Virus record (IMG/VR): IMGVR_UViG_3300038701_001928
Location: 1-37,443 of that record
Origin: a virus
Length of the DNA stretch: 37,443 nt
Direction: 5' to 3' (one strand)
Shown here: positions 6,961 to 37,060 of the stretch, piece after piece
Numbering within the stretch: the first letter of the stretch is position 1
Layout of the letters: the number at the start of each line of letters is the position of its first letter
Position numbers and translations under genes: made by a program
Notes under the pieces: generated by a model
The model's database searches: none
What the model was told of the DNA's origin: nothing
The model's input: the letters and a program-made list of their open reading frames with translations, nothing else

Positions 6961-7531
6961 CATCATAATTATAGCATGCGGCCCAAGTGTGACACCTGAA
7001 ATGGTGGAATATTGTAAGGGCAAGGGCTATGTTGCCGTTATTAATGAAGCCCATTTATATGCGCCATGGGCGGATCTTCTTTATGCATGTGATGGTGATT
7101 GGTGGGAATCATATAATGGATGCCCTGATTTTCAGGGTGAAAAGTGGACTGTAAACGATGCCGCCGCGGATAAGTATGATTTGTACCACATTAAGGGCGT
7201 ACCAAACCTTATTTATTCAGATAATCCGGAAGAAATAGCCCTTGGTGGTAATAGTGGATATCAGATTTTAAACATGATGGATGTTTGGGGTAAAAATAAC
7301 GGTTATGACCGGATTATATTGCTTGGTTATGATATGGGCGGATTGCCAGGGCAACAAAAACATTTTTGGGAAAAAGACCATAAGCCCAAAATTGAGCGTG
7401 GCAGCAATTACCACACATGGATTAAAAATTTCAACAAATTAGCCCCTAAATTGCAATTACCCGTTACAAATTGCAGCCTTCAAAGCAAATTACAGTGCTT
7501 TCCAAAAAAACATTTGTATAATGTGTTATGA
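6953..7531 (+). CDS. Rossmann-like protein in the head-tail module
   Basis: 192 residues from the ATG at 6953, which I prefer to a TTG three bases earlier; it overlaps the previous stop. The N-terminus has a short hydrophobic strand and a glycine turn (IIIIACGPSV), followed by KGKGYVAVINEAHLY, WADLLYACDGDWWE and DRIILLGYDMGG. This is the pattern of a nucleotide-binding Rossmann fold, as in DUF115-like or glycosyltransferase-like phage proteins. No catalytic function can be assigned. It is unusual among structural genes and could modify the virion or a host surface component. Confidence 0.6.
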   Translation: MNSIIIIACGPSVTPEMVEYCKGKGYVAVINEAHLYAPWADLLYACDGDWWESYNGCPDFQGEKWTVNDAAADKYDLYHIKGVPNLIYSDNPEEIALGGNSGYQILNMMDVWGKNNGYDRIILLGYDMGGLPGQQKHFWEKDHKPKIERGSNYHTWIKNFNKLAPKLQLPVTNCSLQSKLQCFPKKHLYNVL

Positions 7532-7602
7532 GTTTAAGAAATGCCCTGTTTTGGATCTCTTTTATCGCCATAAATATCTATATCTATTTTTACGGCATTT
7601 AG
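7528..7602 (+). CDS. Possible 24-residue membrane peptide
   Basis: ATG at 7528 overlaps the stop of the preceding gene (ATGA) and encodes 24 residues, mostly hydrophobic and aromatic (ALFWISFIAINIYIYFYGI). It would be a single membrane segment. No family is recognised. The coupling geometry is the main support; the 88-base gap otherwise holds no gene. Confidence 0.3.
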   Translation: MSLRNALFWISFIAINIYIYFYGI

Positions 7603-7619
7603 TGTGGTAATTTTTATAT

Positions 7620-7958
7620 ATGAGATCAGGCGAATTAACAGATCGTATTTATTTTGAAAGCCCCACGGAAGTAAACAATCATGGATCGGTTGAATTAACC
7701 TATGCGGATGTTTCAGGGGATTCGCCGCCTTCACCAACATGGGCAAAAGTTATTTCTAAAAAAGGTGATGAAGCTTTTGAAAGCGCTCGTACAACGGCGC
7801 GCCGGACGGTTGCAGTAAAGTTAAGGTATAGAAGTGATGTTTTAACATCCTGGCGCCTTAAATGGAATAATGAGTATTACCACATTATAGATGTTGACCG
7901 GACAAAAGCCCGCCAAAATGAATTGTGGCTTATGGCAGAATTGATAGGGGCGGAATAA
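7620..7958 (+). CDS. Head-tail adaptor (head closure) protein
   Basis: 112 residues matching the phage head-tail joining family (SPP1 gp16-like): MRSGELTDRIYFESP at the N-terminus, a central TWAKVISKKGDEAFES, and the RTVAVKLRYRSDV ... WRLKWNNEYYHIIDVD pattern in the second half. These proteins seal the connector after packaging. The next gene starts two bases after the stop. Confidence 0.9.
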   Translation: MRSGELTDRIYFESPTEVNNHGSVELTYADVSGDSPPSPTWAKVISKKGDEAFESARTTARRTVAVKLRYRSDVLTSWRLKWNNEYYHIIDVDRTKARQNELWLMAELIGAE

Positions 7959-7959
7959 T

Positions 7960-8388
7960 ATGAAAGTAGATATTGACCTAGAAGGCTTTGATAAACTGGA
8001 TAATGCTTTAAAGCAGTTGCCATTAAAGGTGCAGCGCCGTGTATTGCAGAACGCCGCCACAAGTGCCATTAGAGTTGGTGCAAAAAGCATCAAAAAAGAT
8101 ACGCCAAGAGGTGTTGAAAGATCACCCGCAAGTGAGCAATACGGACAAGGGTATAGAAATATTCGTGTGAAAAGAACAAAGCCCCGCGGCGCAAATAGAA
8201 ATTTTGTAAGTGCCAAGGTTGATACAAAAAACGCGTTTTGGCTTTATTTTTACGAAAAAGGCACACGATATCAACCGGCCCGCCCGTTTTTTGGGCGCGC
8301 TTTTCAAAATGCCGTACCACAAATGTTGGCAAAGCTTAAAGAAAGGCTTTCAATTGGTATTGAAAGAGAGGTTAAAAAACTGAAATGA
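7960..8388 (+). CDS. HK97 gp10-like tail component
   Basis: 142 residues of the HK97-gp10 / neck protein family: an N-terminal LEGFDKLDNALKQLPLKVQRRVLQNA helix pair, a basic middle (DTPRG, RVKRTKPRG) and the characteristic FYEKGTRYQPARPFFGRAF segment near residue 90. It joins head and tail or terminates the tail tube. The stop overlaps the next gene by four bases (ATGA). Confidence 0.9.
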   Translation: MKVDIDLEGFDKLDNALKQLPLKVQRRVLQNAATSAIRVGAKSIKKDTPRGVERSPASEQYGQGYRNIRVKRTKPRGANRNFVSAKVDTKNAFWLYFYEKGTRYQPARPFFGRAFQNAVPQMLAKLKERLSIGIEREVKKLK

Positions 8389-8795
8389 CTCTAAAATTAC
8401 CAGAATATGCCATACATGAATTGATTAAAACGTTAGCAGATACCAACGTTTTTTATATGAAAGCCCCAAAGGATGCGCCTAGTAAATATATTATTATGCA
8501 GAACATTACAGGGGATAGAGACAGGCACATAAACGGGCCTTCCGGTATGGCGCAAGATTACTTTCAAATAGATGCCTATGCAGAAAAATATTATGATGCC
8601 AAAGCCCTTGCTGCGGAAATAGAAGAAACACTTGATGGGTATAAGGGAACGGTTTATTATGGTGATAATTCGCCACAAGATTTTGTGCGCATTGGTGGAA
8701 TTTCATTTCAAAGCGCTGAAGATGCATACGATCAAACGGATGAACCTTTTTTATATAGAGTAATTGCGGAATATCTTGTAACATACGAACGATAA
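8385..8795 (+). CDS. Tail completion/terminator protein (DUF3168-like)
   Basis: 136 residues with the layout of small tail terminator proteins: IHELIKTLADTNVFYMKAP, then IIMQNITGDRDRHINGPSG, QIDAYAEKYYDAKALAAEIEETL, and a final YRVIAEYLVTYE strand. It is located between the gp10-like protein and the major tail protein, as expected for the tail completion protein that caps the tube. Confidence 0.82.
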   Translation: MTLKLPEYAIHELIKTLADTNVFYMKAPKDAPSKYIIMQNITGDRDRHINGPSGMAQDYFQIDAYAEKYYDAKALAAEIEETLDGYKGTVYYGDNSPQDFVRIGGISFQSAEDAYDQTDEPFLYRVIAEYLVTYER

Positions 8796-18840: not shown

Positions 18841-19464
18841 ATGCCAAACACACATATTAACTCTTCATTACAGCCCGTAAATCCAAAAGAATTGTACCCA
18901 TCAAGCGTATTTCCTATGAATAGGGATAAAATAACCGCGCCGGATGGCAAAGATTATTGGAAGATCAACCCGCCGCGCAGCCGCCCAAATGAAAATCAAA
19001 ACGCGGTGGAAGACGGTTATGAAATTGTGGATGATAAAGGCTATGAAAAATTAGTAATCACATCCAAGCCGCCGGAAGAAATTGAAGCCAATTTGGTTAA
19101 TACAAAATTGCGGGCATATGCAAAAATCAATAATGCCGCAGAAGCAAAGCGGCTTCAATATATAACGCCTGGCGCCGGACAAGCAAACAGTTACCGCCAA
19201 AAATATGAAGAAGCGCTTGCATTTTTGGATGATACAGACCCGCAAGCCGGAGATTACCCATATATCTTTTTAGAAGCCGCCGCAACAGGGGCCGGCACAA
19301 TCGAAGTGGCACAACTAATTGTCAGTACACGCAATTTATTTGTGCAGCTTGATGCGGTAATAGAATCGAAGCGCCGCGGGTATGTGGTGGCTATTGATGC
19401 CGCGGGCACAAAAGAAGACGTAGAATCAATTTTAGAAAGTGTAAGTTATGAATTACCAGATTGA
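18841..19464 (+). CDS. Tail fibre assembly-like protein
   Basis: 207 residues. Residues 95-130 hold the pattern AEAKRLQYITPGAGQANSY followed by RQKYEEALAFL, which is characteristic of DUF4376-like and fibre-assembly proteins where a conserved helix follows ITPGxGQ. The N-terminal part (DGKDYWKINPPRSRPNENQNAVEDGYEIVDDKGYEK) resembles other fibre-cap proteins. Its end overlaps the DUF1353 gene by 17 bases. Confidence 0.65.
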   Translation: MPNTHINSSLQPVNPKELYPSSVFPMNRDKITAPDGKDYWKINPPRSRPNENQNAVEDGYEIVDDKGYEKLVITSKPPEEIEANLVNTKLRAYAKINNAAEAKRLQYITPGAGQANSYRQKYEEALAFLDDTDPQAGDYPYIFLEAAATGAGTIEVAQLIVSTRNLFVQLDAVIESKRRGYVVAIDAAGTKEDVESILESVSYELPD

Positions 19465-19843
19465 AGTTATTACAAATATTAATGATATTGCGAATCATCC
19501 CGATGTACGTTGGCAAGCCCGCAATATTTCAGTGAACATGAAGCCTTGGACGGTTACACTTAAAATAAATGGTGAGCCAAAAACGTTTACCGTGCCAAAA
19601 GGGTTTCAAGCAGATGGATCGAGCGCGGCAAGTATTTCTTCAATCATAGGAATTATGGCAGATGGCAGAAACCGCCCCGCATGGCTTTTACATGATTATC
19701 TTTATGACCACAGCAACGGTTTAACCCGCAAACAAGCAGATTATATTTTTTATTATATGCTAAAGGCTTTAAATATGGGTGATTTTAGGGCAAAATTAGC
19801 ATATGCCGCCGCAAGACTTGCGGGGTGGATTTACTGGAATTAA
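19448..19843 (+). CDS. DUF1353 protein
   Basis: 131 residues with the DUF1353 signature: FTVPKGFQADGSSAAS, RPAWLLHDYLYDHS, and LTRKQADYIFYYMLKALNMG. DUF1353 genes lie next to lysis genes in many proteobacterial phages; their role is not established, although the HDYLY motif hints at an enzymatic centre. It leads the lysis cassette here. Confidence 0.88.
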   Translation: MNYQIEVITNINDIANHPDVRWQARNISVNMKPWTVTLKINGEPKTFTVPKGFQADGSSAASISSIIGIMADGRNRPAWLLHDYLYDHSNGLTRKQADYIFYYMLKALNMGDFRAKLAYAAARLAGWIYWN

Positions 19844-19864: not shown

Positions 19865-20119
19865 TTGTTTGTAGATTGGATAATGGAATATTGGCCCATT
19901 ATAGCATTTTTAAGCGCCCATTTATTGGCATTATTGATTGCCATTATTAAATTTAGCAATAGGTTTGCGAAGTTGGAAACCCGTATTGAACACATAGAAA
20001 AGAATCAGGACGATACCCAAAGCCTAGCTTTAAAGGTTGCGGGATTGGTTGCAGATACTCGAAATGTAAGGGAAAGCATTTTAAGGATAGAAGCGCACTT
20101 ACTTAAAGATAGAAAGTGA
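19865..20119 (+). CDS. Small membrane coiled-coil protein (DUF2730-like), holin candidate
   Basis: 84 residues. Residues 10-29 form one membrane segment (PIIAFLSAHLLALLIAIIKF), followed by a coiled coil (LETRIEHIEKNQDD... LRIEAHL). This shape matches DUF2730-type phage proteins in lysis regions. The start is TTG at 19865, supported by GGGGA seven bases upstream; an ATG 18 bases later would remove the first residues but keep the membrane segment. It could be the holin or a holin partner. Confidence 0.65.
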   Translation: MFVDWIMEYWPIIAFLSAHLLALLIAIIKFSNRFAKLETRIEHIEKNQDDTQSLALKVAGLVADTRNVRESILRIEAHLLKDRK

Positions 20120-20123
20120 AGCC

Positions 20124-20522
20124 ATGAATATTGCTTTGATTGAAGACAGCGAAATTTTCAGACACTTATTTATTATTTATGCAAAAGATTTGGGGCTTTC
20201 TAATATATCGGAGTTTTCTAATTTAGAAAAATTTAAACAATCACAAATTAATTTTGATTTGGTGTTTACTGATTTAAATTTACCCGATGCGTGGGGGCAT
20301 GATACAGTAAACCACATAAGACAAAAAAATAAGTCTTGTTATTTAGTGGTAGTTACAGCCCTTGCAGGGCAATATTTTACGGGTACAATAGCCGCAGAAT
20401 TAATAAAGTCCGGTGCAAACGAAGCCATTTCTAAGGATGATTTAAACCCTAAAAAGCTTTCTTTTATTCTGCAAAACGCAAACAGTTATTTAGGAAACCA
20501 TAAAAATGAATCTCAATTATGA
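20124..20522 (+). CDS. Stand-alone response-regulator receiver domain
   Basis: 132 residues forming a full CheY-like receiver with no output domain. The acidic pocket is ED at residues 7-8, the phosphoacceptor is D50 in VFTDLNLPD, T78 lies in VVVTAL, and K104 in ISKDDL is the conserved lysine. The set is intact, so phosphorylation by a host histidine kinase or small phosphodonors is plausible. It sits between the holin candidate and the endolysin, and its end overlaps the endolysin start by 17 bases. A stand-alone receiver in a lysis cassette is unusual. Confidence 0.88.
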   Translation: MNIALIEDSEIFRHLFIIYAKDLGLSNISEFSNLEKFKQSQINFDLVFTDLNLPDAWGHDTVNHIRQKNKSCYLVVVTALAGQYFTGTIAAELIKSGANEAISKDDLNPKKLSFILQNANSYLGNHKNESQL

Positions 20523-21321
20523 AACCTTTTTTGCCTATGTCAGAAATGCCCCATTTGGCGGGCGTTTAACCATTTCACAAGTACAGGGTTTAGAAGCCGT
20601 TTTAAGAGCGTTTAAAGACGGTGGGCACAAAGACCCAAGATTTTTGGCATACATCATGGCAACGGCATACCATGAGACAGGCGGCAAAATTCAGGCGGTT
20701 AGGGAAGGTTTTGCAAAAACAGATGCCGCCGCCCGCAAAATTGTTTCTAAATACAAGTATGGCAAACCGGATGAAATCACAGGGCACGTATATTATGGGC
20801 GCGGTTTGGTACAACTTACATGGAAAGAAAATTATGCAACCGCACGGGAATTAACGGGCTTTGATCTTGTTAATAATCCAGATAAGGCGCTGGATTTGCA
20901 AATAAGTGCCTATATTCTTGTGGAAGGCATGGTACAGGGCTTGTTTACAGGTAAAGCCCTAAAAGACTATTTCAAAGAAGGTTATGAGAATCCAGAAGGG
21001 GCGCGCAAAATTGTGAACGGCACAGACAAAGACGAATTAATAGCCGGATATTACTTTAATTTTATTGGCGCGATTGAAAAAGCCACACAAGCCGAAAAAC
21101 CAAAAGATGTGACAAAGGAAAAGGCACAGCCGGATAAACCAAACTTGGCAACCGATCAAACATTACTTGGCGGTATTTCCGCGGTGGCAGGATCGGGCGC
21201 GCTTGGCGTGTTTTCTTCAATTGATTCCCCATGGGCATTGGCGGCATTCGCCATTGTGTGTGTGGGCGCATGGGCGTTTTTAACCGGACGTTTAAAAATT
21301 ATTCGTGAAGCGGGCGCATAG
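20506..21321 (+). CDS. GH19-like endolysin with C-terminal membrane hairpin
   Basis: 271 residues. Residues 1-190 resemble glycoside hydrolase 19 / chitinase-like endolysins: E57 in AYHETGG is the likely catalytic acid, and YYGRGLVQLTWKENY (about 97-110) is the family's substrate-cleft motif. A lysine/proline linker (195-213) leads to two hydrophobic segments, about 221-239 and 243-260, ending RLKIIREAGA. It would cleave peptidoglycan and may be membrane anchored. It overlaps the receiver gene and the spanin gene. Confidence 0.88.
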   Translation: MNLNYETFFAYVRNAPFGGRLTISQVQGLEAVLRAFKDGGHKDPRFLAYIMATAYHETGGKIQAVREGFAKTDAAARKIVSKYKYGKPDEITGHVYYGRGLVQLTWKENYATARELTGFDLVNNPDKALDLQISAYILVEGMVQGLFTGKALKDYFKEGYENPEGARKIVNGTDKDELIAGYYFNFIGAIEKATQAEKPKDVTKEKAQPDKPNLATDQTLLGGISAVAGSGALGVFSSIDSPWALAAFAIVCVGAWAFLTGRLKIIREAGA

Positions 21322-21596
21322 TGACCAAATTATATTTATATATTGCGGGTTTTTTGGCGGTGATGTTATTTTGGATGCATTATCAAGGCATTTTACTGGA
21401 AAACAAAGCCCTTGCCGCCACAGTCAAAATACAAAAAAGAACTATTGCCGCGCTTGATGAAAGAGACATTTTGTTAAAGCAAGCATACGAAGAAGAAAGG
21501 GAAATATTGGATGAAATACGGAATACGCCGGAAGATCAAGACGGCCCTATTGCTCCTGTTTTGCGCAACACTATTAAGCTCTTGTCAGACCCCTAA
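21321..21596 (+). CDS. Rz: Inner-membrane spanin (Rz-like)
   Basis: 91 residues: a membrane segment near residues 4-20 (LYLYIAGFLAVMLFWMH) and then a charged coiled coil with KRTIAALDERDILLKQAYEEE, the i-spanin layout. GTG start at 21321 overlaps the endolysin stop TAG. It pairs with the overlapping o-spanin gene to fuse inner and outer membranes in the last step of lysis, which implies a Gram-negative host. Confidence 0.82.
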   Translation: MTKLYLYIAGFLAVMLFWMHYQGILLENKALAATVKIQKRTIAALDERDILLKQAYEEEREILDEIRNTPEDQDGPIAPVLRNTIKLLSDP

Positions 21597-21768
21597 AGCC
21601 GAACTTCCCGAATCCTTGTTTATTGTGCCGGAATATCCTAAATATCCGGAGAATTTGACTCGGCAATCACAAGCCGCGGAATGGATAACAAAGGCAAAGA
21701 CAAGTTACAAACAGTGTGTTATTAATAATAATACGATTAAAAAAATCATCCGGAGCGATTCAAAATGA
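21511..21768 (+). CDS. Rz1: Outer-membrane spanin lipoprotein (Rz1-like)
   Basis: 85 residues in a different frame, starting inside the i-spanin gene and running past its end. The signal sequence RRKIKTALLLLFCATLLSSC has a lipobox LSSC with the lipid-bearing cysteine at residue 25, leaving a mature lipoprotein of about 61 residues with several prolines. The stop overlaps the next gene (ATGA). Architecture and place identify the Rz1 partner. Confidence 0.84.
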   Translation: MKYGIRRKIKTALLLLFCATLLSSCQTPKAELPESLFIVPEYPKYPENLTRQSQAAEWITKAKTSYKQCVINNNTIKKIIRSDSK

Positions 21769-24665: not shown

Positions 24666-24743
24666 GGTGCGGTAGATCAGCTAGGTTAGATCGTTGGTTT
24701 CATACACCAAAGGACGTAGGTTCGAATCCTACCCGCGCAACCA
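24666..24743 (+). tRNA. tRNA with CAU anticodon (Met or Ile2)
   Basis: A 78-base cloverleaf: acceptor GGTGCGG with CCGCGCA, D-stem GATC/GATC, anticodon stem TTGGT/ACCAA with loop TTCATAC, variable loop AGGAC, T-stem GTAGG/CCTAC with loop TTCGAAT, discriminator A and encoded CCA. The anticodon is CAU. The first pair is G1 with A72, a mismatch, and pair 3 is G-U. The anticodon stem lacks the GGG/CCC pairs of initiator tRNA. Elongator Met and lysidine-modified Ile2 reading AUA are both possible; AUA is frequent in these genes. Confidence 0.88.
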
Positions 24744-25719: not shown

Positions 25720-25952
25720 ATAAAAAAGGTCAAACAAAAAAGGTTTCTTTATTAGAATCAATAATTAATGTTTTTGTAGGCATTTTTATAGCTTGTTTAA
25801 CCCAAATGGTTGTATTTCCCTTATTTTCAATAAATATTAGTTTGTCACAAAATGTATATATAGCTTTAATTTTTACGGCAGTTTCTATTATAAGAAGCTA
25901 TTTTTTACGTAGGGTGTTTAATTTTTTACACGTAAAAGAGATTCTTAAATGA
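25716..25952 (+). CDS. Small membrane protein, DUF7220-like
   Basis: 78 residues from the ATG at 25716, which overlaps the previous stop (ATGA); a longer frame upstream is a less likely start. The pattern LLESIINVFVGIFIACLTQMVVFPLFSINIS, then NVYIALIFTAVSIIRSYFLRRVFN gives two membrane segments with a conserved FTxxSxxRSYxxRRxFN end, a family common in phages of unknown role. It overlaps the methyltransferase by four bases. Confidence 0.72.
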   Translation: MNKKGQTKKVSLLESIINVFVGIFIACLTQMVVFPLFSINISLSQNVYIALIFTAVSIIRSYFLRRVFNFLHVKEILK

Positions 25953-26701
25953 TTAAATTTATAGAAAAGTGCAAAAGTGTTAAGTCCATACACACGGTGG
26001 GCGATTGCACATTATTGCGCGGTGATTCCATCAAGATCATGCGCGAACTTATACATAGAGGTTTCAGGGCAAAATGTGTGGCATCCGATCCGCCCTACCT
26101 TCTTACATCCGGTGGGGGCACTAATCAGCCTATGGCGGGTGTATTTTCAAAAGACCAGTATGACAACGGGGGGCATTTAGTGCCTTGTGACATAGATTGG
26201 AATGATTTTATGCCCCTGTTTTACGAGATAATGACCCGCGGGCATGCCTATGTCATGGCGAATAATCGCAACGTACAACCAATGTTAAATGCCGCAGAAA
26301 AAGCGGGGTTTGGGTTTCACAATTTGCTTGTATGGGATAAATGCACAGCGACTCCCAATCGGTGGTATATGAAGAATTGCGAATTTACCGGATTATTTTA
26401 TAAAGGCAAAGCACAGCAAATAAATGATTGTGGCGCTAAAGCTTGCATAAGATATCAGCACACAGATGTTTCAGATCATCCAACGGAAAAGCCTGTTAGT
26501 CTTATGCGCTATTATATTGAAAACAGCACGGATAAAGGTGATATAGTCATAGATCCATTTGCAGGAAGCGGCACAACGGGCGTTGCATGTATGCAATCTG
26601 GGCGCAAGTTTTTAGGCATAGAAATGGATGAATCTTTTTACAACACGGCATGCAAGCGCTTAACCGCACAAAACCAGAACTTACAGGCAAATTTATTATA
26701 A
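25949..26701 (+). CDS. DNA methyltransferase (beta class)
   Basis: 250 residues. The catalytic motif IV is SDPPYLL (residues 46-52), the SAM-binding motif I is DPFAGSGTTG (202-211), and HPTEKP (177-182) precedes it; the order IV before I defines the beta group of N6-adenine or N4-cytosine methyltransferases. DPPY suggests adenine more often, but specificity cannot be read. No restriction partner is adjacent. It may protect phage DNA or alter host expression. Confidence 0.9.
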   Translation: MIKFIEKCKSVKSIHTVGDCTLLRGDSIKIMRELIHRGFRAKCVASDPPYLLTSGGGTNQPMAGVFSKDQYDNGGHLVPCDIDWNDFMPLFYEIMTRGHAYVMANNRNVQPMLNAAEKAGFGFHNLLVWDKCTATPNRWYMKNCEFTGLFYKGKAQQINDCGAKACIRYQHTDVSDHPTEKPVSLMRYYIENSTDKGDIVIDPFAGSGTTGVACMQSGRKFLGIEMDESFYNTACKRLTAQNQNLQANLL

Positions 26702-30805: not shown

Positions 30806-31079
30806 AATCAAAAAAGATCAATACAATCAAAGCGAAGCTAAAATTTTAGATGATAACGGAAAAGAAATTTTAATACCTTTAACGTCAATGCAAATTATAG
30901 TAAAGCCCGAAGGCATTGTGTGTGAAGCCACTATAGCATGTATAGAAAAGGTCAATGCAACTACTGGTGATATAGATTTTTATGTGCCAAATGTCGGGCA
31001 AATATCAAGTATTGTTACAAAAGAAGGCAAGAAAGTTTCCTTATGCGGAATTAAACCACTAAAAAATATTAACAATTAA
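30795..31079 (+). CDS. Hypothetical protein, 94 residues
   Basis: 94 residues, beta-rich (EAKILDDNGKEILIPLTSMQIIVKPEGIVCEATIACIEKV), overlapping the ASCH-like gene by 11 bases. No family recognised. Confidence 0.55.
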   Translation: MQIEIKKDQYNQSEAKILDDNGKEILIPLTSMQIIVKPEGIVCEATIACIEKVNATTGDIDFYVPNVGQISSIVTKEGKKVSLCGIKPLKNINN

Positions 31080-31811: not shown

Positions 31812-32516
31812 ATGACAGCAACAAAAAAGAAAATTTCAATAGAAGCCCGCGCAGATGAATGGCTAGACTCTGGTAATGTGGGCGCATCTTCAAGATGCAT
31901 CTATCAGTTTATGCGGTTTGGCGGCGTGGAGTCCTGCCATTATCCACATGATGCCGCAGATTTTGGCAGATGTTTGGAACTGTTAAAGCAAGTGCCGGAA
32001 TGGGAAACCAGATTAGGTGAAATGGCAGAGTTGCCAGGACATAACGGCAAGATTTGGGAAATGATTGCCGTTAATTACTTTGAATTGAAAGAAATTTATC
32101 TTCAAGATCAGGGCACATTTAATGAGTTTTATTGGAAGTTGTTGCACCCGATTGAAAAGAAAAGCGGCAATGTGTTTAATCTGGAAGGCGGCAAAGTATC
32201 AATGGGTGTATCATTTAAGACCGAAAACATAGGGCATAATGCCGCCACGGAGTCCGCGCAGGAAGTTGGCGGTGTGGCCGGTGAACGCCTTAGATCATTT
32301 ATTGAGCGCGTGGAACGCCTAGACGAAGAAAAAGCCGCGATAGGCGAAGACATAAAAGAGGTTTTTTCAGAAGCCAAGGCGGTTGGGTTTGATGTTAAAA
32401 CCATGCGCAAAATTATTAAATTGCGCAAGATGGATACAGAAAAGCGGCGTGAAGAAGACGAATTATTAGATTTGTATATGGCGGCAATAGGCATGCAGCG
32501 TAGCTTTAATTTTTAA
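31812..32516 (+). CDS. GapR (DUF2312) domain fusion protein
   Basis: 234 residues. The C-terminal part (about 153-227) matches GapR: GGVAGERLRSFIERVERLDEEKAAIGEDIKEVFSEAKAVGFDVKTMRKIIKLRKMD. GapR is a nucleoid protein that binds overtwisted DNA and stimulates gyrase and topoisomerase IV in Caulobacter. The N-terminal 110 residues (YPHDAADFGRCLELLKQVPEWE) form another helical phage domain, with a linker between. Host GapR is about 80-90 residues, so this is a fusion. Likely acts on DNA topology. Confidence 0.85.
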   Translation: MTATKKKISIEARADEWLDSGNVGASSRCIYQFMRFGGVESCHYPHDAADFGRCLELLKQVPEWETRLGEMAELPGHNGKIWEMIAVNYFELKEIYLQDQGTFNEFYWKLLHPIEKKSGNVFNLEGGKVSMGVSFKTENIGHNAATESAQEVGGVAGERLRSFIERVERLDEEKAAIGEDIKEVFSEAKAVGFDVKTMRKIIKLRKMDTEKRREEDELLDLYMAAIGMQRSFNF

Positions 32517-36133: not shown

Positions 36134-37060
36134 ATGAAAAACATTATAGAATTTGGAGATTGCCGCGCAATTATGAAGAAGTGGGCACAATTGGGCGTTA
36201 AGGTTAATACTTGTGTCACAAGCCCCCCTTATTATGGCTTAAGAGATTATGGACATAGTGAACAAATAGGCTTAGAGTTAAGCCCAAATGAATATGTTAA
36301 AAATTTAGTTGAAGTTTTTAGGCATGTAAGAGAAATTTTGCATGATGATGGCACTATATGGGTAAACCTTGGGGACTCTTATGCCGGATCTAATAAAGGG
36401 CAATGGCACGGTGAAAGCAAAGACCCATACAACAACAAAACACAGGGTATGAGTCTTGAACGTGTGCCAGCTGGCAAAATTGGATTAAAGCAAAAGGATT
36501 TAATTGGCATCCCATGGCGCGTTGCCTTTGCATTGCAAGAAGATGGTTGGTATTTGCGGCAAGATATCATTTGGAACAAACCAAGCCCAATGCCAGAAAG
36601 TGTGCGCGATAGATGCACAAAAGCACACGAATATATTTTTCTATTAAGCAAAAATAAAAATTATTATTTTGACCAAGAAGCAATAAAAGAAAAATCTAAT
36701 ACATTTGACAATAATGTAAGGGATAGAGAAAACACCAGACTTAATAATACGCCAGGGCGCACAAAAATGGGTGGCTTAACTAAAAATAATTATGAGTATA
36801 AAAACAAAAGATCAGTTTGGACGGTTGCCGCTAAAGCTTATTCAGGCGCACATTTTGCAGTATATCCGCCCGAACTTATAGCACCATGCATATTAGCAGG
36901 AAGCCCAAAAGGTGGAATTGTTTTAGATCCTTTTATGGGTAGTGGAACTACAGCATACACAGCAAAAGAAAATTCAAGACATTACCTTGGGTGTGAAATT
37001 AACAAAGAATATAAGCCTTTGCAGGATGAAAGATTAATACAAGAGGTTTTATATATATGA
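36134..37060 (+). CDS. Second DNA methyltransferase (beta class)
   Basis: 308 residues. Catalytic motif TSPPYYGLRDYG (29-40), HFAVYPPELIAPCILAGSP (240-258) and SAM motif DPFMGSGTT (265-273); order IV then I is beta class. SPPY is frequent in N4-cytosine enzymes, but the product base needs measurement. The GGTAAG Shine-Dalgarno precedes the ATG. No restriction endonuclease partner is next to it, other than the HNH gene that overlaps its end by four bases. Confidence 0.92.
   Translation: MKNIIEFGDCRAIMKKWAQLGVKVNTCVTSPPYYGLRDYGHSEQIGLELSPNEYVKNLVEVFRHVREILHDDGTIWVNLGDSYAGSNKGQWHGESKDPYNNKTQGMSLERVPAGKIGLKQKDLIGIPWRVAFALQEDGWYLRQDIIWNKPSPMPESVRDRCTKAHEYIFLLSKNKNYYFDQEAIKEKSNTFDNNVRDRENTRLNNTPGRTKMGGLTKNNYEYKNKRSVWTVAAKAYSGAHFAVYPPELIAPCILAGSPKGGIVLDPFMGSGTTAYTAKENSRHYLGCEINKEYKPLQDERLIQEVLYI

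Follow-up and report, generated by a model that had tools for sequence, protein, structure and literature searches.

A stand-alone CheY-type receiver gene within a phage lysis cassette and its possible role in lysis timing

Introduction

The timing of phage lysis is known to be controlled mainly by holin accumulation, antiholins or transcription. In XhlA/XhlB-type lysis systems, such as that of the Bacillus subtilis element PBSX, and among DUF2730-like phage proteins, a small protein that combines one membrane segment with a coiled coil is encoded beside holin or endolysin genes. In PBSX, xhlA, xhlB and xlyA are all required for vesicle release, in line with what had been reported earlier for lysis (PMC5589764). 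A link between the state of a host phosphorelay and release or lysis has been described for CtrA systems: endolysin expression and release of the Rhodobacter capsulatus gene transfer agent (GTA) are under host CtrA control (PMC6363796), and a CtrA-based "lytic deferment" was proposed for alphaproteobacterial phages (PMC9437464).

Single-domain response regulators such as CheY, Spo0F, DivK, CpdR and MrrA consist of the receiver fold alone, with an intact acidic pair (E/D), phospho-acceptor D, T and K and no output domain, and the protein described here shares this architecture. CheY-type regulators act via phosphorylation-dependent partner binding or phosphotransfer, and they take their phosphate from other proteins of the cell or from small phosphodonors. 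A subgroup in Alphaproteobacteria, the FATGUY Rec-only proteins SdrG, Sma0114, MrrA and CpdR, comprises stand-alone receivers with a special beta4/loop region (PMC9981736). Receiver-like domains also occur in phages, as the cRec domains of jumbo phages illustrate (PMC7824862).

Here, we describe a receiver gene inside the lysis cassette of an uncultivated virus and a set of similar cassettes in other phages. Receivers and lysis genes are both known kinds of genes, but their repeated coupling appears to be undescribed: no account of a receiver within a lysis cassette turned up in the literature searched, most subscription papers and all preprints being outside its reach. Our results suggest that some phages make the time of lysis dependent on a phosphorylation signal of the host.

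Results

The window, i.e. the whole stretch of 37,443 nucleotides that was analyzed, is IMG/VR virus record IMGVR_UViG_3300038701_001928. The gene at 20124-20522 on the plus strand (ATG start, 132 amino acids) encodes a stand-alone CheY-type receiver, as the first-pass annotation had proposed. The product matches Pfam Response_reg (PF00072) over residues 3-105 with 46.7 bits (curated cut-off 30.2; E 4e-12), and no other Pfam domain was found among matches considered up to E 0.1, so that an output domain is absent. The acidic pair E7/D8, the phospho-acceptor D50, the switch residue T78 and K104 are all present at the positions initially reported. An AlphaFold2 model built from nine viral receivers gave a confident alpha/beta fold (mean pLDDT 89.8, pTM 0.85), which in a Foldseek search against the PDB matched the receivers of NtrC1, DrrB and CheY with TM-scores of about 0.7-0.8, NtrC1 being nearest at about 25% identity. 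The window thus contains a genuine receiver gene and not a chance reading frame.

This receiver gene lies among lysis genes, in the position between a membrane protein gene and the endolysin gene that had been noted from the sequence. Endolysin, spanins and membrane protein form one tight operon-like block, which is preceded by a DUF1353 gene (19448-19843, plus strand) in the upstream flank that we do not propose as part of the receiver module. All following cassette genes are also encoded on the plus strand. Directly before the receiver, 19865-20119 encodes an 84-residue protein from a TTG start, with an alternative in-frame ATG at 19883, and its stop lies 4 nt before the receiver start. A hydrophobic segment at about residues 11-31 (maximum mean hydropathy 2.44) is followed by a charged coiled coil, and the charges flanking the segment (-2 on the N side, +1 on the C side) suggest that this coiled coil lies in the cytoplasm. 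Pfam and PHROG profiles gave weak DUF2730 and phrog_736 matches and no confident family, and the similarity to the XhlA-like counterpart in Alteromonas phage PB15 reached a z of 4.4. This product, earlier designated a holin candidate, is better named an XhlA/DUF2730-like membrane coiled-coil protein.

The downstream GH19-type endolysin (20506-21321; phrog_181, E 2.4e-37, GH19 domain) overlaps the receiver gene by the 17 bases already recorded (20506-20522). It carries a hydrophobic C-terminal segment (residues about 235-266) and, judged from this feature, may be membrane-tethered or possess its own export or holin-like element. Two spanin genes follow. The candidate for an Rz-like inner-membrane spanin at 21321-21596 is indicated by its position, a membrane segment and a weak DUF2570 match, and is overlapped in a different frame by the gene of an Rz1-like outer-membrane lipoprotein spanin at 21511-21768 (phrog_456, E 7e-8; lipobox-like LLSSC; weak LysC match). 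Promoter and terminator scans yielded sites no more numerous than in shuffled sequences. Elsewhere, the window encodes two N6/N4 DNA methylases (25949-26701 and 36134-37060) and a tRNA-Met (cat) gene (24666-24743).

A recurring layout of membrane coiled-coil protein, stand-alone receiver and endolysin, spanin or holin-like gene was found in the window, in the viral contig L057 and in the Alteromonas phages PB15, V22 and R8W. The first two genes of these five cassettes lie -4 to +4 nt apart, and the endolysins and phage types vary. Membrane coiled-coil gene and receiver share an ATGA start/stop overlap in L057, PB15 and R8W, and are separated by 2 nt in V22 and by 4 nt in the window. L057 (31.9 kb) has a large structural protein whose relatives include internal virion proteins of podovirus-like phages. 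Its receiver (8001-8381) is located between the membrane coiled-coil gene directly before it (7735-8004) and an endolysin (8354-8755; phrog_465, E 8e-43) of a family other than that of the window, followed by a small transmembrane (TM) protein and an Rz-like spanin. In PB15, the receiver gene is preceded by that of an XhlA-like protein (phrog_937 "hemolysin", E 2e-16) and followed by the genes of an M15 endolysin (phrog_894, E 2e-31) and, next, of a 3TM holin of GTA type. In the myovirus V22, ORF29, which has an N-terminal hydrophobic stretch of low peak hydropathy (1.31) and a coiled coil, is followed by the receiver ORF30, the Rz-like spanin ORF31 (phrog_4297, E 7e-6) and a TM protein. In R8W, the 153-residue receiver stands between a membrane coiled-coil protein, itself preceded by a class II holin, and a further membrane protein, with ATGA overlaps. 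Two contigs are weaker cases: L066, in which a receiver is followed by a coiled-coil/TM protein, and L060, with a CHAP endolysin, a TM protein, a sigma-70 factor, the receiver and a further TM protein. Recurrence beside lysis genes, which had been put forward as a check on the window gene, was thus mostly observed, in phages that are unrelated to one another, and supports a link between receiver and lysis genes.

The deposited annotations of the three Alteromonas phage receivers differ from what we found. In PB15 (L084, KX982260.1; 30533-30931, minus strand), the "response regulator" start was placed too far in and omits the first beta strand, and an in-frame ATG at 30931 that overlaps the XhlA-like stop as ATGA yields a complete receiver. 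R8W gp48 (L089, MW043865.1, 44435-44896) is annotated as DNA-binding PhoB and is actually the 153-residue receiver without a DNA-binding domain. V22 ORF30 (L082, MN877442.1, 25749-26198) codes for a receiver of 149 residues and nothing else, despite its annotation as "hybrid sensor histidine kinase - response regulator".

The membrane coiled-coil proteins of the window and L057 are reciprocal best matches among 8204 ORFs, and their score was reached by none of 2000 composition-preserving shuffles; clear sequence kinship of the membrane proteins was limited to the pairs window-L057, L057-R8W, window-PB15 and PB15-L066. The receivers fall into at least two groups, one comprising the window, L057, L066 and L060 and the other R8W, V22 and PB15, and repeated recruitment is therefore probable: to judge by this grouping, receivers probably entered the lysis slot more than once. 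A 4-residue beta4-alpha4 insertion is common to the window and L057 receivers (T-to-K spacing of 26, against 22 in almost all of the other receivers compared). The first-pass annotation had named the loss of D50 or K104, or a scattered location, as signs against a signalling role in lysis. Such signs were largely missing: the phospho-acceptor Asp, the switch Thr/Ser and the Lys are kept in all seven cassette receivers, including diverged copies, and a scattered stand-alone receiver, away from lysis genes, was encountered in MW202601.

These cases were reached by different routes. L057, L060, L066 and MW202601 were found with receiver-only queries, V22 via literature on phage signalling genes, and PB15 as a guess at the source of a structure-search match. 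R8W was picked from lysis-related literature, its holin g46 and regulator g48 being known beforehand; the other cases were not chosen for lysis genes. The chance that L057, V22 and PB15 would all fall into lysis slots is roughly estimated to be of the order of 5 in 10,000, if about six lysis-adjacent slots per genome are assumed and both ascertainment and negatives such as MW202601 are left out of account. Viral and genome contigs scanned with the window receiver as single query gave no match, and tblastn of this receiver in cultured phages gave weak matches only. The receivers of V22, PB15 and R8W were missed by this search because they are too diverged, and "no match" was a false negative there. 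Scans with the terminase, tail protein J, the DUF1353 protein and the membrane coiled-coil protein returned one relative at most, or none. Few cassettes are known.

Receivers were also found in other settings. In larger phages, they adjoin kinases or a helicase, which is a different situation. In the large viral contigs L056 (7531-12527), L059 (7397-12083) and L070 (5926-8341), pairs of receivers lie close to histidine-kinase-like genes, in what appears to be a two-component cluster of phages. For the most part, L056, L059, L067 and L069-L072 represent systems of larger phages that include kinases, helicases or extended proteins. L058, L068 and L074 were set aside as multi-domain regulators and L075 as a weak match.

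The receiver is absent from most related cassettes. None of 39 contigs with endolysins related to that of the window, some of them fragments, carries it, and it is therefore dispensable. Three of these relatives (L002, L005, L006) have a similar small membrane/coiled-coil gene directly before the endolysin with no receiver between, and so does L018, where this gene has another topology. A relative of L057, MW202485, shows the order tail fibre, XhlA-like protein, amidase, esterase, TM protein and Rz-like protein without a receiver, which makes the receiver an optional part. In this podovirus, the gene at MW202485.1 33127-33591 (L079 11918-12382), annotated as endodeoxyribonuclease I, matches Amidase_2 (E 1e-11) and is probably the endolysin.

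This absence could indicate that the receiver is a passenger gene (moron), for which the tail/lysis boundary merely tolerates insertions, so that receivers landed there by chance and bring a benefit unrelated to lysis, or none. The receiver elsewhere in MW202601 and the GC content of the window gene (31.6%, the lowest among the genes compared) would fit such an origin. Its codon choice, however, resembles that of the remaining phage genes, the motif residues are kept in diverged copies, and the tight coupling to one kind of partner after at least two recruitments is not what chance insertion would predict. We therefore regard a passenger gene as unlikely.

Discussion

We propose that the receiver and the upstream membrane coiled-coil protein constitute a closely coupled two-gene regulatory unit inside lysis cassettes. 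Late in infection, the receiver would be made along with the membrane protein, the endolysin and the spanins. The phosphorylation of D50 would be set by histidine kinases or phosphotransferases of the host, or by small phosphodonors such as acetyl phosphate. The phosphorylated (or unphosphorylated) receiver could then bind the XhlA/holin-accessory-like membrane protein at its cytosolic coiled coil, and this binding would advance or delay membrane permeabilisation, so that lysis timing tracks the signalling or metabolic state of the host. We regard this model, in which lysis timing is regulated by a phosphorylation switch through the coiled-coil partner, as the most likely reading, at about an even chance. 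Phosphorylation in vivo, binding to the membrane protein and an effect on lysis timing, in whichever direction, are the parts of this model that we infer; the interaction with the coiled coil is postulated from gene order and topology. The upstream membrane coiled-coil protein is most likely the partner that matters, and the strongest case for a function is that different receivers were recruited to one place beside one kind of partner.

A phosphate source within the phages was not apparent. HATPase_c domains were found neither in the window nor in L057, L060, L066, V22 and PB15, a set with possibly incomplete contigs; the positive-control genomes gave matches. Hpt or HPTransfase (ChpT-type) domains were likewise not found in the window, L057, L060 and L066. 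None of the six sequences scanned for HATPase_c, again with the proviso that contigs may be incomplete, encodes a cognate kinase alongside the receiver as a two-component pair would. With no kinase found in the phages tested, the receiver would have to obtain its phosphate from small phosphodonors or from proteins of the host.

The receiver might, on the other hand, act on host signalling instead of lysis proteins, if, made late and in large amounts, it drained phosphate from the kinases or phosphotransferases of the host (ChpT/CckA in Alphaproteobacteria, other kinases in Alteromonas) or competed for them, with the cassette serving merely as a strong late operon. A receiver with intact phosphorylation residues, without an output domain and without a detectable phage kinase would suit this role, as would the modified beta4-alpha4 loop, a receiver element that contacts ChpT in Alphaproteobacteria (PMC9981736). 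We consider this rather unlikely, as it leaves two observations unexplained: the membrane coiled-coil gene found immediately before the receiver in five phages, often with overlapping start and stop, and the entry of different receiver groups into one slot.

The first-pass annotation had also pointed to CtrA-type cell-cycle signalling. GapR-like DNA-binding domains in the window (31812-32516, preceded by about 150 additional N-terminal residues) and in L057 (10142-10438, minus strand) are consistent with alphaproteobacterial hosts. Alteromonas hosts are Gammaproteobacteria and, to our knowledge, have no CtrA. With three receiver cassettes in Alteromonas phages, a general function therefore cannot depend on CtrA, and a CtrA-specific account would fit alphaproteobacterial carriers only.

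In L060, a sigma-70-family factor and the receiver overlap by 4 bases (7531-8435), about 1 kb downstream of the CHAP endolysin, which possibly represents a phage-borne receiver/sigma pair. Sigma/receiver pairing is known from the alphaproteobacterial stress response, and the receiver could accordingly time late expression together with a transcription protein of phage or host, for instance this sigma factor that ends where the receiver starts. Such a transcriptional role seems very unlikely to us, because the cassettes of the window, L057, V22, PB15 and R8W have no sigma-like neighbour and the receiver has no DNA-binding domain.

Lysis gating through the membrane coiled-coil protein may extend beyond the window, as a widespread mode of lysis control that has so far escaped notice. 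Among phages of varied morphology and host, receivers without a kinase would then have been inserted repeatedly behind a holin-accessory protein of the membrane coiled-coil kind, before the endolysin or spanin genes, and host phosphorylation would directly gate the membrane step post-translationally. We put forward this generalization tentatively, at somewhat below even probability. If true, a phosphorylation-switched protein acting on a membrane lysis protein would let the phage sense host metabolism, stress or cell-cycle state at lysis, and the annotation of such receivers as auxiliary metabolic genes, PhoB or hybrid kinase would have to be corrected. As the cultured Alteromonas phages R8W, PB15 and V22 carry the cassette, this idea can be tested now.

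How does this locus compare with the systems described so far? Close counterparts are the stand-alone receivers already deposited as V22 ORF30, PB15 "response regulator" and R8W gp48 "PhoB", which occupy the same slot as the window receiver and belong to another receiver group. The V22 paper, in the sections available, names ORF30 as a signalling auxiliary gene only (PMC7289586), and an association of receiver and lysis genes is not mentioned in the available sections of the V22 and R8W papers. In contrast to CheY-type regulators, the window receiver is encoded in a phage lysis cassette with no kinase alongside, lacks an aromatic residue at K-3 (A101) and has a beta4-alpha4 loop that is 4 residues longer. 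A DivK-like origin is unsupported, since no DivK-type match was found. The FATGUY proteins differ by their motif, which is absent at beta4 of the window receiver (VVVTALAGQY), and we therefore rejected membership of this family. We likewise rejected a cRec identity: cRec domains are divergent and tied to NAD/ADP-ribose and RNA-repair genes, not to kinases (PMC7824862), whereas the window protein matches conventional Response_reg alone in Pfam (E up to 0.1) and has lysis genes as neighbours. Compared to XhlA-type systems, with which the 19865-20119 product shares small size, one membrane segment and a coiled coil, the window has a receiver between coiled-coil gene and endolysin, the membrane segment is N-terminal and the family matches are weak. 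In the CtrA systems of GTA release and "lytic deferment", finally, it is a host regulator that acts on promoters, whereas here the phage brings its own receiver.
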